From an uncultured bacterium (lineage in GTDB: Bacteria > Cyanobacteriota > Vampirovibrionia > Gastranaerophilales > Gastranaerophilaceae), in contig CASFCQ010000005.1 of the NCBI GenBank assembly GCA_949293185.1, forward strand, positions 1 through 47,151: a stretch of DNA of 47,151 bases, in the 5' to 3' direction. This document shows, piece by piece, positions 835-6,207 of this stretch. The stretch's first letter is position 1, and each line of letters starts with the position of its first letter. The notes below the pieces were generated by a model. That model was not told the origin of the DNA. It saw only the letters and a list, made by a program, of their open reading frames with translations, and ran no database searches. Made by a program: the position numbers and the translations under genes.

Positions 835-946
835 AACCTCTCCTTTCTTATTTTTTATATATTAATGCTGCCTGCAAAATTTTTAATCCGACTCTAAGGC
901 AATTTTTCAATAGCAAAAAGTTTTATTTATGGTTTTTAGGCTTTAT

Positions 947-3364
947 ATGTTGGTTCTGAATAATCAAAAAATTAATAACAAATACAATACTCCGAGTTTT
1001 AAAGCAGCTCCTAACAAAATTATTTTAAATACCGTTAAAAATTACGCAGACGAAATACCTGCCGGTATGCTAAAAGAAGATTTTTTGAAAGCTGTAAAAA
1101 ACGGTTATGAAAATTTTCAAAAAATGAACAGGTCTGTTTTTTCAGAAAACATAAGACCAGAAAGCCGTGAAATCGTTGAAAAATTCATGCAAATCCCCGA
1201 GTATGATGAATCATTACTCCCCTTTTTTGTTCATCGTAAAAGAGGAGAGCTTGAGTATTTGTATTCACTGGCAACCAAACATGACCTCAGCGGAGAAATG
1301 AGGATTCCGGCATTTGCTTATCCCTATTTTGCAGAGCTTACGCCTGAACGTTTAAAAATCCTTGAACCTATTATAACTTCTAAAAATGATATGGGACTGT
1401 GGAACTACGGTACATCTTTTATTTTGGATCTTGATCGTTTTGATGAAAAGCAGGTAGAAATTATGTCCAAACTTGTTCGCTGCAAAGTCGCAAGAGATAC
1501 GGTTTTATATGTACCCGTAAATCCTTATATTAATTGGGACAAAACAGTTGAAAAAGCAGAGCTTTTAAATAAAATATACGGGAAAAAGCTTAGAGAAATA
1601 AGTTTTTTTTCCAACAGCTACGGAGAAAATTATCTTTATGCAGACATTCAACTTCCTCACAAAAAAGACAAACCGGACTGGCAAAATTTTAAACGTGTGT
1701 ATGCAAAGCTTGATACTGACGTAAACCCGATTGGAAAACTATCAAATATCAAAAACAATAAAATTGATAACCAAATTGACAACTTGTATAACAAAATACT
1801 GGATAAAATATATTTGTTTAACAAACATGATCTGGCCCAAACCGTTGAAAACGTTATGCATAAGATTCCGGAAGCCGATGAGAAAATTATACTCAACGTA
1901 ATGCAGCGTCTTACCCAGTTTGCTAATTACAAATGCCTGCCGCAACTCGGTGAAAAATTAAAAGAAAACAATATCGGAAAAATATATAAATCAGGAGAAA
2001 TTAATCCTTATTTTTATTATTTTAGTGTAAACAAAAATTTATTTGATCTTTCTGATTTCCCTTATTCGTCTATTGCATACTTTGTTACAAAAAAAGATGT
2101 GCAAAATCAAAAATTAATGAAAGCTTTTGAAGAAGTTATAAAAAGCGGTGTAAATATAAAATTTATTAACCTTGAAGGTTTTTCTGACGGGGTCAATCTT
2201 TTTGGAGATAACGAAAAACTTGAAAAAAGCACTATAAAAACTCTTTCAAAAATAAAAAAGATTTTGGCTAAAAATCCTAAATTAACTCCGGATGAGGCTA
2301 TGAACAAATTCTTTAACAGCACTATTGAAAACGAAATGAAAAAGATAGGGGCACAGGTAATCACAATAAAACTTCCCGCACCACCAAGCGCAAGCTCCGT
2401 ACTTGAGCAAATGAATCCGTACCTGCCTGCAAAAGGAATAATAAAATCAACAGTTGAATCCATTGCACGACACTATACCTGTACACAAAGCGGCTTTGAC
2501 GAACTCTGTCAAAAACTGACCTCATATTATGAGGCAAATATAAATGTTTATTCTAAACAAACAATCATAAATGAACTAAAATTGATTAATAAACAGATAA
2601 ATGACTTTTTAAAAACACATAATCTTAGTGAAGAAAATTTATATATCTTAAAGCCCTATACACTTTATGTTCGTAAAAGTTTTGATTTAATAACAAAAAT
2701 GTATGCTGATTTATTCAATATAAATCCTCAAAAGATAATAACAATGGAAGATATTGGCTCAGCAAACAGTTTTCCGCAAAATTCTGTTTTTGTTATTTTA
2801 GATGATATTGTCGGCTCGGGGCAATCAATGATGGATGCCTGCAGTTACGAAACAGCAGCAAGCTCTTTGAAAAAAGACAAGCATATACTGTTTGCGCCTT
2901 TATGTGCTTCAAAAAACGGTGCAGAATATATACGTGACGGTATTACCTCCTGCGGCAGAGAACATTCTGACAGGCTAATTTGCCTTGATAAAAATATAAC
3001 TGACTATAAAAAGACAAATAACAATTTCTATGAATGGTTTGACGTTATTAATGACAAACACACAGGTCAGTGCGGAGAAGGCGGTTACGGCGCAAACGCA
3101 CAGTGTACGGTTTTTCCCTATATGGCACCTGACAATAATTCCGCTCTCGCTGGTGATCTTGTAAAATTCTTTTTACCCGACACACGCTGCATTAAAAATA
3201 AAGCTGATAATTTAAACATAATAGAAGAAGAAACATACTATTATGATGTTTTTGGTGCGGAAAAAAATATGCTGCTAACAGATGCAAAACAAGTTTTTAG
3301 AATAAAAGAACCTTTTTGGGATAAAATAATTGAAAAACTAAAAAAATTTTTAAACAATAATTGA
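947..3364 (+). CDS. Large lineage-specific protein with a C-terminal phosphoribosyltransferase-like domain (PRTase-like A)
   Basis: About 805 residues; not recognised as a whole. The start at 947 has a weak AGG upstream; an in-frame ATG at 929 has no SD. Near the N terminus is NTPSFKAAPN, a short motif shared with other hypothetical proteins here. The middle (to about residue 560) is charged and helical without a familiar motif. The C-terminal quarter looks like a type I phosphoribosyltransferase fold: SVFVILDDIVGSGQSMMDA (about 613-631) matches the PRPP-binding loop pattern of four hydrophobics, two acids, then S/T-G-x-S/T. The final segment VFPYMAPDNNSALAGD (about 720-735) recurs in the 5029-6207 gene, so the two are homologous there. 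No signal peptide or membrane helix is seen. It converges on the NADAR-like gene with a 9-nt gap. PRTase-like fold about 65 percent sure; substrate unknown. Confidence 0.65.
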   Translation: MLVLNNQKINNKYNTPSFKAAPNKIILNTVKNYADEIPAGMLKEDFLKAVKNGYENFQKMNRSVFSENIRPESREIVEKFMQIPEYDESLLPFFVHRKRGELEYLYSLATKHDLSGEMRIPAFAYPYFAELTPERLKILEPIITSKNDMGLWNYGTSFILDLDRFDEKQVEIMSKLVRCKVARDTVLYVPVNPYINWDKTVEKAELLNKIYGKKLREISFFSNSYGENYLYADIQLPHKKDKPDWQNFKRVYAKLDTDVNPIGKLSNIKNNKIDNQIDNLYNKILDKIYLFNKHDLAQTVENVMHKIPEADEKIILNVMQRLTQFANYKCLPQLGEKLKENNIGKIYKSGEINPYFYYFSVNKNLFDLSDFPYSSIAYFVTKKDVQNQKLMKAFEEVIKSGVNIKFINLEGFSDGVNLFGDNEKLEKSTIKTLSKIKKILAKNPKLTPDEAMNKFFNSTIENEMKKIGAQVITIKLPAPPSASSVLEQMNPYLPAKGIIKSTVESIARHYTCTQSGFDELCQKLTSYYEANINVYSKQTIINELKLINKQINDFLKTHNLSEENLYILKPYTLYVRKSFDLITKMYADLFNINPQKIITMEDIGSANSFPQNSVFVILDDIVGSGQSMMDACSYETAASSLKKDKHILFAPLCASKNGAEYIRDGITSCGREHSDRLICLDKNITDYKKTNNNFYEWFDVINDKHTGQCGEGGYGANAQCTVFPYMAPDNNSALAGDLVKFFLPDTRCIKNKADNLNIIEEETYYYDVFGAEKNMLLTDAKQVFRIKEPFWDKIIEKLKKFLNNN

Positions 3365-3373
3365 TTTATATTT

Positions 3374-4279
3374 TTAAAATTTGTGTTTGAAAACAATTGT
3401 TTTAATATTGTGCAAAAATTTCGGCATTTTTGAAGTAAAATAGTCATTTGTTTTGTAATAAAAATTATCTTTACCTCGTAATTCATTTAGTATATCAATA
3501 AATTCCTGTTGTGTAAGAATCGTTGAATTAATATCATTTTTGCCTATTGTATGCCTTAGAATATATTGTTTAGAAGCACGTAAAGCTCTTCTAAAAAGGG
3601 GGTCTTGTTTGTATCTTTCAGCATAAACTCTTTGTAATAATTTTTTGTACTCTTGAGAATCTCTTTTAAAGCTTTTGCCGTTCCAGTATAATGTACGTGT
3701 ATCATATGTTAAATGTATGTTTCGTGCAGCGTCTTTGAGTTTTTCTGACGGCAAAGAACAGATTTTTACTTGTATTTTAGGGTCTTTTTCTTTCAATGCC
3801 AGCAAAAAAGCATTAATAGAGGATATGGTTTTGCCGCCCCATTCAAAAAATGAAGAGGTTAAGTTTTTATTTTTTTGCGCAAGAACCTCTGCCAATATTT
3901 CCCGAAACATTGGAGAATCTTTTCGGAAAGTATGGTTATTCCAAAAGAGCATTAAATCATCCTTTGCTCTTTTGATTGATTTTGATGCTTTTTTAGCGTC
4001 AAATCCTGACATTAAACAAAGTTTACGCTGTTCATCAGGGTCTTTTACTTTCAACGACTGTAAAAAACCTTCCATAGAATTTATTTGGACGCCGTCAAAT
4101 TGGAATTTTGTATCGGAAAAATTACTTAAAACATTTGCAGGGAATCGCCCCCTTGCCTTTATATCCAAAACTTTTACCTGTTCAGTATTTAAATTAGGCA
4201 AATAAGTTGTATAAGCCGGCGTTTGGGTCGGATAAGTTCTTTTTATGTATATTCTATGTTGTTGCGGTATAGATATCAT
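3374..4279 (-). CDS. NADAR-like protein with an internal duplication
   Basis: A 301-residue protein with two related segments 86 residues apart. Segment 1 (about 51-135) reads LSNFSDTKFQFDG, then NSMEGFLQSLKVKDPDEQ, then an AK-K pair and LFWNN. This is the order of the NADAR/YbiA superfamily (SNF, DG, S-x-E with a Q-x-x-K helix, AK, then an aromatic W). Segment 2 (about 145-265) repeats it but has Asn156 where segment 1 has Glu70, the expected catalytic acid, and continues into RALRASKQYILRHTIGKND and TILTQQEF, a NADAR-like C terminus. NADAR enzymes cleave N-glycosidic bonds of ribosylated substrates, including riboflavin precursors and ADP-ribosylated guanine. It is the last gene of a three-gene unit (6207 to 3374), with AAGGTAATTTACTT before its ATG. 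The fold call is by motif order only. Confidence 0.5.
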   Translation of the reverse strand: MISIPQQHRIYIKRTYPTQTPAYTTYLPNLNTEQVKVLDIKARGRFPANVLSNFSDTKFQFDGVQINSMEGFLQSLKVKDPDEQRKLCLMSGFDAKKASKSIKRAKDDLMLFWNNHTFRKDSPMFREILAEVLAQKNKNLTSSFFEWGGKTISSINAFLLALKEKDPKIQVKICSLPSEKLKDAARNIHLTYDTRTLYWNGKSFKRDSQEYKKLLQRVYAERYKQDPLFRRALRASKQYILRHTIGKNDINSTILTQQEFIDILNELRGKDNFYYKTNDYFTSKMPKFLHNIKTIVFKHKF

Positions 4280-4330
4280 AAGTAAATTACCTTGTTATGA
4301 CTTTTTAAAACACATAAACGGTAAAAATTG

Positions 4331-5005
4331 CTATTTGTTGTTAAATAATTTTTCAAAAATTTTGGTCATCACATTCATTCTGGCTGATTCTTGCATACCT
4401 TTGTCGTATTCTTCTATAGGACAAAGATCTTGCCAGTTTGTGCATATAATTTTTTTGGTATCGGGATTTATTTTAAGCGCATTACCATCAAAAATTGCTT
4501 TGTTAACAATTCCGAGTTTTAATAATTTTTTTAAATCTTTATAAGCTTCTTGTTTTGATTCATCTGTCAAAAGGCTATATCCTTTGTGATAATCAATAAG
4601 ATTACAATTTTTTGTTCCGTCAATTTTTAATACAGAAACAGCAAAACCTTCTTTATTATTAGCACAGGTCAAAAATTCAGGCGCCATTGAGATTCCTTTT
4701 TTCTTCAATCCGCTTAAAACAGATTTATCATATTCTGCATCAATATCCATTGAAGGTTTTATTATATATTCCCCGAATTTTATCTCTTTATTTTCATTGA
4801 TTTTTGCATTCGGATTTTCTTCAAGAAAACGATTTATGGTTTCCCAATATGAATTATAGTCAGTTGTTTTTTCTACGTCCGACAAAAATTTAGTTAACTT
4901 TTCAGGTAGAGACAACATATCATTTTGGACAATGCCGCTTGTGCCTTTTTGACTTATTTTGTATTTGAAATAAGAAGTATTGTAGTTGTTAACAATTTCA
5001 TTCAT
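4331..5005 (-). CDS. Hypothetical protein with a degenerate kinase-like C-terminal half
   Basis: A 224-residue cytosolic protein not firmly recognised. EGFAVSVLKIDGTKN (about 118-132) resembles a hinge-like strand, and GIVNKAIFDGNALKINPDTK followed by KIICTNWQDL (about 164-193) resembles the catalytic-loop to DFG/DW region of protein-kinase-fold proteins. The catalytic Asp of an HxD motif and the metal-binding Asp before W are replaced (N and TN). If the fold is right it is a pseudokinase or a very divergent kinase. It lies between the PRTase-like B gene (gap 23 nt) and the NADAR-like gene (gap 51 nt) on the same strand. The start is backed by AAGGGAAATACT. Related in style to the 10627-11295 protein. 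Confidence 0.4.
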   Translation of the reverse strand: MNEIVNNYNTSYFKYKISQKGTSGIVQNDMLSLPEKLTKFLSDVEKTTDYNSYWETINRFLEENPNAKINENKEIKFGEYIIKPSMDIDAEYDKSVLSGLKKKGISMAPEFLTCANNKEGFAVSVLKIDGTKNCNLIDYHKGYSLLTDESKQEAYKDLKKLLKLGIVNKAIFDGNALKINPDTKKIICTNWQDLCPIEEYDKGMQESARMNVMTKIFEKLFNNK

Positions 5006-5028
5006 AGTATTTCCCTTTTCATTTTTGA

Positions 5029-6207
5029 TTAAGAATTAAGACGGTCGATTAACCATCTTGGCGGATATTCCAATCTGCCCTCTTTAGATACAATCGTTTT
5101 TTCGATGTTTTTAATTGCAAATTGTGGACCGCTGAACAGATGCTGTATCATATTTGCCGAAAAAAGGCTGTTGTTGTTTGGTGACATATACGGAAACATT
5201 ATCGCTGTTCCTGCAGAATACCCTTGGGTTGTATCCTGACATCTCAAAAGAGTTTTTAAAAAGTCTTGTTTAACAGTTTTGGGTTTTCCGCCTACCATTA
5301 TTATGAGATTTTTAAAGAAATCTGTTTCTTCAAGTGTCTTTTTAGCAGCACCGTCATAATGTATATTGAGAGCAGGTGCTGTTTTTTTGAGATAATCTAT
5401 GCCCTTTTTATATGCTGCACAAACATACATGTCTACCCTGTTTATGTTGCCGCAAGCTGTCATTATTGAATTATAAACATCTTGCGCAGAATTCCCTGTG
5501 ATTAAACAATCATCCAGTATTGCGACGTTTGTATGAGGATGTACTGCAGTATAATCTTTAAGATTTTTCCATCCTACAATTACATTAGCGTTTGGATTAG
5601 CTTCTTTATATAAACTTGAAATTATTCCATAGCTTTTATTTTTGTCAGGAACATAAATGATAGTATTTTCGCCTGTTTTTTGTATTTGTTTAGAAAAATC
5701 TTTTAAAATATTTTTTATTCTATCATAAGAATAAATTTCAAAATTATTTTCCAGATATTTTGTTAAAACTTCTTTAGCTTCTGCTCTTGTTCTTGTATTA
5801 ACATTGGGAAACGCAATGTCAATATATTCATCAATCTTTCCGTCTTTTTTCAATTTGTTAATTGCGTTTTCAAACACACCTTCCGCATTTGCAATTCCAT
5901 AAGACTCTCTCCAATTATCAAGTACTTTTTCTGTCCTTCCTCTTTTAGCTGCAGCTGCCAGTTTTGTTGCATTATAACCCTCGAGAACATCATCAAAAAT
6001 CAGTTCTGCTTTTTGTAACACTTGTTCTTTTTCTACAATTTGCGGATAAAGTCTCGGAGAAAATTCCACTACATCTTGAGTAAGAAGCCGCGGATATTCT
6101 ATGATTTCATTGGTCGGTTTCAGCGGAACTCTTATAGGCGGAGTGTGCCCCAGTATATTTTTTAAGCCAAATGAAGTAATATTTTTTAAAAAATTTATGC
6201 TAACCAA
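5029..6207 (-). CDS. Phosphoribosyltransferase-like protein (PRTase-like B)
   Basis: A 392-residue protein. NTIIYVPDKNKSYGIISSLY (about 179-198) is followed by NVAILDDCLITGNSAQDV (about 226-243), which fits the PRPP-binding loop of type I phosphoribosyltransferases. AIMFPYMSPNNNSLFSANMI (about 333-352) matches the 947-3364 protein nearly residue for residue at FPYMxPxNNS. The N-terminal 170 residues are helical and unrecognised, with an N-terminal NITSFGLKN. The start is TTG with AAGGTAG upstream; no better ATG is close by. It heads the minus-strand unit PRTase-like B, kinase-like, NADAR-like, and has no signal peptide. A PRTase fold is likely; whether it is an enzyme or a ligand sensor cannot be told. 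Confidence 0.65.
   Translation of the reverse strand: MVSINFLKNITSFGLKNILGHTPPIRVPLKPTNEIIEYPRLLTQDVVEFSPRLYPQIVEKEQVLQKAELIFDDVLEGYNATKLAAAAKRGRTEKVLDNWRESYGIANAEGVFENAINKLKKDGKIDEYIDIAFPNVNTRTRAEAKEVLTKYLENNFEIYSYDRIKNILKDFSKQIQKTGENTIIYVPDKNKSYGIISSLYKEANPNANVIVGWKNLKDYTAVHPHTNVAILDDCLITGNSAQDVYNSIMTACGNINRVDMYVCAAYKKGIDYLKKTAPALNIHYDGAAKKTLEETDFFKNLIIMVGGKPKTVKQDFLKTLLRCQDTTQGYSAGTAIMFPYMSPNNNSLFSANMIQHLFSGPQFAIKNIEKTIVSKEGRLEYPPRWLIDRLNS

Follow-up and report, generated by a model that had tools for sequence, protein, structure and literature searches.

A PRTase, a pseudokinase-like protein and a gp30.3-type NADAR form a conserved gene cassette in Gastranaerophilales that may be a writer/eraser system

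Introduction

NADAR proteins are hydrolases that have been reported to undo the ADP-ribosylation of guanosine in DNA and RNA (PMC11125620, PMC11833690). In DarT1-NADAR and YarT-YbiA (PMC11543638, PMC11125620), a NADAR with a catalytic Glu and Lys lies beside an enzyme that transfers a ribosyl group and whose mark the NADAR is proposed to undo, and in Tre1-Tri1-like pairs an ADP-ribosyltransferase (ART) as the writer lies beside an eraser of the DraG/ARH type. Phosphoribosyltransferases (PRTases) also recur in conflict systems; they are found in type III-A retrons together with a reverse transcriptase and a winged-helix protein (PMC12548924) and, with a DD motif and RelA/SpoT among the domains, in polyvalent-protein and Ter loci (PMC5512222, PMC7824862), and these papers leave the role of the PRTases open or proposed. 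NARP1 (Adps and Namat; PMC12774641) is a further conflict-related system in which the chemistry is that of the PRTase superfamily and involves ribosyl pyrophosphates. A predicted PRTase, YbiB, is encoded in the ybiA operon of Escherichia coli (PMC11125620), which parallels a PRTase-NADAR pairing. Here, we describe a cassette of three genes, PRTase B, the pseudokinase-like K and the NADAR N, in a stretch of 47,151 nucleotides (the window) from an uncultured bacterium of the Gastranaerophilaceae (GCA_949293185.1, CASFCQ010000005.1; contig C5 of a 2.2-Mb genome). No description of a PRTase-NADAR module was found in the literature, which is weak evidence since open-licence papers only were covered.

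The cassette differs from each of these systems. In place of the transferases of DarT1-NADAR and YarT-YbiA it has a predicted type I PRTase of the PRTase-CE family, its NADAR is of the gp30.3 type (marked by a His) with an internal duplication, and a pseudokinase-like gene is present as the third component; when B-K-N was compared with DarT1-NADAR, the partner of the NADAR was found to be a PRTase and not a DarT-type ART. With the ART-DraG pairs it has in common the chromosomal site, the same leader in four of six cases and the arrangement of writer beside eraser, but the PRTase and NADAR folds are unrelated to those of ART and DraG, and B-K-N is co-directional whereas ART-DraG is convergent. 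Since the transferase has a different fold, the cassette falls outside DarT1-NADAR, YarT-YbiA and ART-DraG. The PRTase of type III-A retrons is from the same Pfam family as B, but its partners differ and the genome with the cassette has no reverse transcriptase. MuF, TerB/D and HAD partners, which accompany the PRTases of Ter and polyvalent-protein loci, are missing from the cassette, which has a NADAR and a pseudokinase-like protein. Finally, Namat of NARP1 is Nampt-like, unlike the type I PRTase B, no gene for Adps (PRPP-synthetase-like; PRPP, phosphoribosyl pyrophosphate) is present, and K has a predicted protein-kinase fold.

Results

The initial annotation had taken four genes as one unit, with PRTase-like genes (A and B) at both ends and the genes for N and K between them (Table 1). 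All four open reading frames are present, and both end genes exceed the curated Pfam cut-off of 27 bits for PF24390 (PRTase-CE), A with 47.5 bits and B with 36.8 bits. B, K and N indeed recur together: in protein searches, which covered 59 relatives, they were found in the same order in G000, G013, G022 and G005, and A was seen apart from them, so that the case in which the genes would never be found together elsewhere did not occur. The four-gene unit itself was ruled out, since A is not beside B-K-N in G013, G022 and G005 and a homologue of A (96% identical) adjoins an ART-DraG pair in the congener G008. The cassette is made up of three genes, B-K-N, and A is a separable, independent paralogue, a neighbour rather than a member.

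Local profiles extended the searches to other genera, in which B-K-N partners were found as well, with PRTase proteins of 370 to 1,713 amino acids. Twenty-six N loci of Gastranaerophilales were collected from a scan of public genomes and the window; they contain near relatives and hence are not 26 independent events, and one of them, L157, is from a bin whose label is Eubacteriales and has a flanking gene like that of G020. A PRTase was adjacent to N in 20 loci and K lay between or beside them in 16, an ART-like partner was present in 5, and L165 had neither. K always follows the PRTase directly and on the same strand, and N lies downstream in the same direction in some loci and is convergent in others. 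The same genes thus occur in two layouts, which argues for a functional link of the partners. No PRTase was found within the fetched flanks of gp30.3 loci outside Gastranaerophilales. In L165 (7707-10510), the only Gastranaerophilales gp30.3 locus with neither a PRTase nor an ART neighbour, the gene follows one with FHA and peptidase-like domains.

The chromosomal site of the window was compared among congeners. It lies between a 143-amino-acid gene plus a glycoside-hydrolase-57-like gene (as read from sequence) and a cupin/CorC-like pair. PRTase-K-NADAR is found there in G000 and G013, an ART with a convergent DraG-family gene in G008, G019, G016 and G006, and an ART in G002 and in G017, whose copy lies at the end of a contig, with no DraG seen in either; in G010, no cassette is present beside the 143-amino-acid gene. 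The DraG assignment is certain for G008 (PF03747, 1.1e-75), and the nearest NCBIfam match of the G019 gene is the Tri1 hydrolase (7.4e-26). The ART of G008 matches PHROG 3895, 'ADP-ribosyltransferase exoenzyme toxin' (7e-7), and a profile of four site ARTs weakly matches C3 exoenzyme over ~150 residues (0.056).

The N-terminal leader of B is also present in four of the six site ARTs (G008, G019, G017 and G002), with an amino acid identity of 40 to 58% over 50 to 100 residues to those of G019, G017 and G002; the ARTs of G016 and G006 have bodies homologous to the other site ARTs and a different N-terminus. At the DNA level, the window and G008 are 97 to 98% identical across the promoter and the early leader; identity is 77% in the first and 68% in the second of the 60-column blocks that follow, and 26 to 47% after these, one later block excepted. 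The pattern looks like the outcome of recombination within the writer gene, by which the catalytic body and the eraser were exchanged.

ART-like proteins are also found next to N itself. In L158 to L161 and L163, the partner of N has an invariant R-G (LYRGE), S-T, Q-x-E pattern and is probably an ART of the R-S-E/QxE type. The QxE form is known from guanine-targeting ARTs such as Scabin. Profiles of these partners matched the TreX toxin (E = 0.0034, PDB) and Scabin (0.4 to 2.6), and no Pfam family was above its cut-off for the ART candidates. The layouts of the ART-N loci, convergent as well as co-directional, mirror those of the PRTase loci. By eye, a helical-looking protein of ~150 amino acids is convergent to the NADAR in ART-NADAR loci (L163:10538-10993, L161:10456-10923), and the NADARs of L159 and L160, which are longer, have a similar N-terminal stretch; this protein is a possible third component in the place of K.

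The initial annotation had described the proteins as PRTase-like with PRPP-loop motifs and a shared FPYMxPxNNS tail, as a duplicated NADAR-like protein and as a degenerate kinase-like protein. These descriptions were borne out, B and K by structure models (AlphaFold, with fold comparison by VIA Z) and N by its family and catalytic residues. The model of B has a pLDDT of 71 overall and of ~90 over the core, and its residues ~150 to 360 match uracil PRTase 1o5o with a VIA Z of 13.3 (129 residues, 2.6 Å). A Z of at least 8 was reached by 530 chains; unnamed entries aside, all 50 listed are PRTases, PyrR or PRPP synthetases, and the fold, a classical one, is nearest to uracil and 6-oxopurine PRTases. 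B is thus, according to the model, a type I PRTase. The motifs named in the annotation are present, and the PRPP loop of B is near invariant across 59 relatives (D232 in 59/59, D233 and G238 in 58/59 each, S/T237 in 56/59), as is a Lys-Ser pair at 191-192, taken here to be the pyrophosphate loop. As a signature of the family, the F-P-Y-M-x-P-x-N-N tail is conserved in ~70% of these sequences, and P339, P343, N345 and N346 are nearly invariant in a narrower alignment (A4). The leader was modelled at low confidence and is probably disordered. In an alignment with G008, the TTG start of the B gene sits behind an AAGG-type ribosome site.

N matches PF08010 (Phage_30_3, gp30.3) in two stretches, so the internal duplication is real; single-copy relatives exist as well. 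E70-x6-K77 and H243 are invariant in all 13 relatives of N. E70 and K77 correspond to the catalytic E88 and K95 of C7 NADAR (PMC11543638), and H243 to the His, in the last strand, that marks gp30.3-type (phage-type) NADARs; T4 gp30.3 strips ADP-ribose off guanosine in vitro (PMC11125620). One relative of N, L205, matches PF08010 and PF08719 (NADAR) over the same stretch, the latter at 2.3e-4 and below the cut-off. A profile of N searched against PDB sequences matched no NADAR structure. Judged by Pfam, catalytic residues and the literature, N is a gp30.3-type NADAR with a complete active site. Fusions of gp30.3 are found in Bacteroidales, with KptA (L208:9413-10936, L191:2351-4042) and with an alpha/beta-hydrolase-like domain (L191, L178:2668-3798), and the gp30.3-KptA gene of L208 sits among RNA-ligase-, RtcB- and ADP-ribosylglycohydrolase-like genes.

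K has no significant match to a Pfam, NCBIfam or PADLOC family. Its model (pLDDT 84.7, pTM 0.78) is a confident prediction of a protein-kinase fold, with RIO2 (VIA Z 10.7), Rio1 (10.3), TkArkI (9.6) and HopBF1 (9.4) as matches; the N-terminal tail is unordered. An active kinase was rejected, since the beta3 Lys (K83, present in 6 of 14 relatives), the Asp of the catalytic loop (position 170, Asp or Glu in 6/14) and the Asp of the DFG-type motif (position 190, Asp in 8/14, Asn in the window) are not conserved. Because these positions vary, we call K a pseudokinase, and it looks catalytically dead. Only Pro109, Asn168, Trp191 and the initiator Met are invariant among the 14 relatives. A match of K in Prevotella L208 was not confirmed by Pfam and was left unused.

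Discussion

At one chromosomal site, a PRTase replaces an ART behind the same leader, and the eraser is changed alongside. By analogy, the module may be a writer/eraser system with a PRTase as the writer in place of an ART. The data show the protein families and folds, the catalytic residues, the conservation of the operon and the swap at the site and after the leader, from which donor, acceptor, toxicity, reversal by N, the part played by K and the place of action are inferred. From its fold and its intact PRPP loop, we propose that B moves phosphoribosyl from PRPP onto an acceptor nitrogen, most likely of the base of a nucleic acid or nucleotide. The mark would be harmful when unchecked, and N would hydrolyse its N-glycosidic link. 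Since NADARs are reported to undo guanosine ADP-ribosylation, guanine would be a reasonable first acceptor. K is the constant neighbour of B and looks enzymatically inactive, so it most likely acts on B, which it would probably bind, restrain or mature. B-K-N seems to have taken over from an ART-DraG pair at this site by exchange within the writer gene, with promoter and leader kept. As a cassette of writer, partner and eraser, B-K-N seems to us a proposition of about even standing. In its sharper form, B would be a toxin that uses PRPP to phosphoribosylate a macromolecule (at guanine of DNA or RNA, for instance), the NADAR would be a de-phosphoribosylase dedicated to this mark and the pseudokinase the third component; we offer this form tentatively, as a possibility that is somewhat doubtful. 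If true, PRPP-driven phosphoribosylation would be a reversible toxic modification and a candidate substrate for many NADARs that have no ART partner, and PRPP-driven marking of macromolecules would be a new class parallel to ADP-ribosylation.

Several observations weigh against this proposal. PRTase-K is found without N in G020 and G005:C46, and PRTase-N without K in L151, L164 and L172. The ARTs were assigned from motifs and from profile matches that are mostly weak. The comparison of the site covers a single genus, in which just two genomes show the replacement by a PRTase. Moreover, NADAR is known to act on ADP-ribosylated guanine and holds the pyrophosphate of ADP-ribose (PMC11543638); a bare phosphoribosyl group is a putative substrate.

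The initial annotation had suggested that the cluster makes or removes a ribosylated product. The idea of a PRTase with a ribosyl eraser is strengthened by the ART found in place of the PRTase and the DraG in place of the NADAR, and an analogy to toxin and antidote, with writer and eraser, fits better than a nucleotide pathway. A metabolite is nevertheless the product in the first alternative, in which no macromolecule is marked. Its appeal lies in the classical type I fold of B, closest to uracil and 6-oxopurine PRTases, in the nucleotide-like products proposed for Ter-system PRTases (PMC5512222, PMC7824862) and in the cleavage of riboflavin-pathway intermediates by YbiA-type NADARs (PMC11543638). 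We consider it rather unlikely, because the gene that takes the place of B at the site, after a common leader, is an ART accompanied by DraG, an eraser of the macromolecule type, and because the kinase, phosphatase and transporter that a pathway needs are not present and K looks inactive.

The cassette would act in the cell, in phage defence or growth control, or be delivered to other cells. In the latter case, B, like the ARTs, would be a polymorphic toxin whose catalytic end can be exchanged, and N and K would be immunity proteins or co-effectors. Export would suit a low-confidence, probably disordered leader common to exchangeable catalytic bodies, a DraG neighbour that resembles the immunity hydrolase Tri1 of a type VI secretion system, the unordered tail of K and a short N-terminal motif enriched in these proteins (see below). 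We regard it as unlikely: we saw neither a signal peptide nor a trafficking domain in the cluster, nor any gene for a secretion apparatus, and tails of this kind, for which an antidote in the cytosol would have no use, are also carried by the immunity-like genes.

In a role in housekeeping or repair, N would clear ADP-ribose or ribosyl damage, much as gp30.3 proteins linked to KptA may do during RNA repair in Bacteroidales, B would be a salvage PRTase and their adjacency would reflect related chemistry only. This would agree with what is found in L208 and L191, where gp30.3 is fused to KptA and has RNA-repair neighbours, but is improbable in view of a patchy distribution (of 386 genomes in the phylum, 10 have a PF08010 match above the cut-off), the ART-DraG exchange at the site and the conserved pseudokinase partner. 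The matches of A and B to PADLOC PRTase_III-A models (1.4e-10 for B) might point to what remains of a type III-A retron, or to a variant of one, with the PRTase as accessory gene; this was rejected, since the 99%-complete genome has no reverse transcriptase (PF00078; controls matched) and no winged-helix partner is present, with K and N found instead in 16 loci.

Other features of the locus

The features of the locus are listed in Table 1.

Table 1. Genes and sequence features of the PRTase-pseudokinase-NADAR locus (positions refer to the window)
Feature	Position	Strand	Description
PRTase A	929-3364	+	811 aa; internal ATG at 947 is a possible start
A PRTase-CE domain	2540-3139	+	Behind a long N-terminal region without assigned fold
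N, gp30.3-type NADAR	3374-4279	-	301 aa; PF08010 6.7e-53; E70, K77, H243 invariant; proposed eraser
N gp30.3 stretch 2	3476-3868	-	Profile 8-137; holds H243; Asn at E position (SINAFLLALK)
N gp30.3 stretch 1	3878-4147	-	Profile 1-90; holds E70 and K77
K, pseudokinase-like	4331-5005	-	224 aa; AlphaFold kinase fold, catalytic positions not conserved
PRTase B	5029-6207	-	392 aa, TTG start; PRTase-CE domain plus N-terminal leader; proposed writer
B C-terminal signature FPYMSPNNNS	5167-5196	-	Residue conservation
B PRPP-binding loop AILDDCLITGNS	5488-5523	-	Conservation across 59 relatives
B leader, first ~60 codons	6028-6207	-	Common to ADP-ribosyltransferases at the same site in congeners

In PRTase A, a drifting iterative profile had placed a second PRTase domain at residues ~280 to 500, which was rejected (hhalign probability 0.6 of 100). 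In long PRTase-CE proteins, the PRTase domain is preceded by a conserved region (INLEGFxDGVNLF), seen in residues ~254 to 520 of A and in 20 relatives. At one P-K-N (PRTase-K-N) locus (L162:3793-8934), a protein of 1,713 amino acids joins a PRTase-CE stretch to a RelA/SpoT domain (8.8e-8). In five genomes, a PRTase-CE protein of ~580 amino acids lies directly 3' of a J-domain-like protein of 190 amino acids, with a divergent gene of ~290 amino acids alongside (G000:C51 [L065:8012-10419], L067, L068, L070 and L071).

A short N-terminal motif resembling PSFKA/LNFTG is present at residues 21 to 26 of A and in many proteins of the Gastranaerophilales loci. Within residues 6 to 60, it was found in 30% of P/K/N proteins, compared to 6% in deeper windows and 8% in other proteins; the contrast was weaker once pattern and window were widened. 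This enriched motif is possibly a lineage-specific sorting signal. A second motif, DVFExS, was found in 10% versus 2%.

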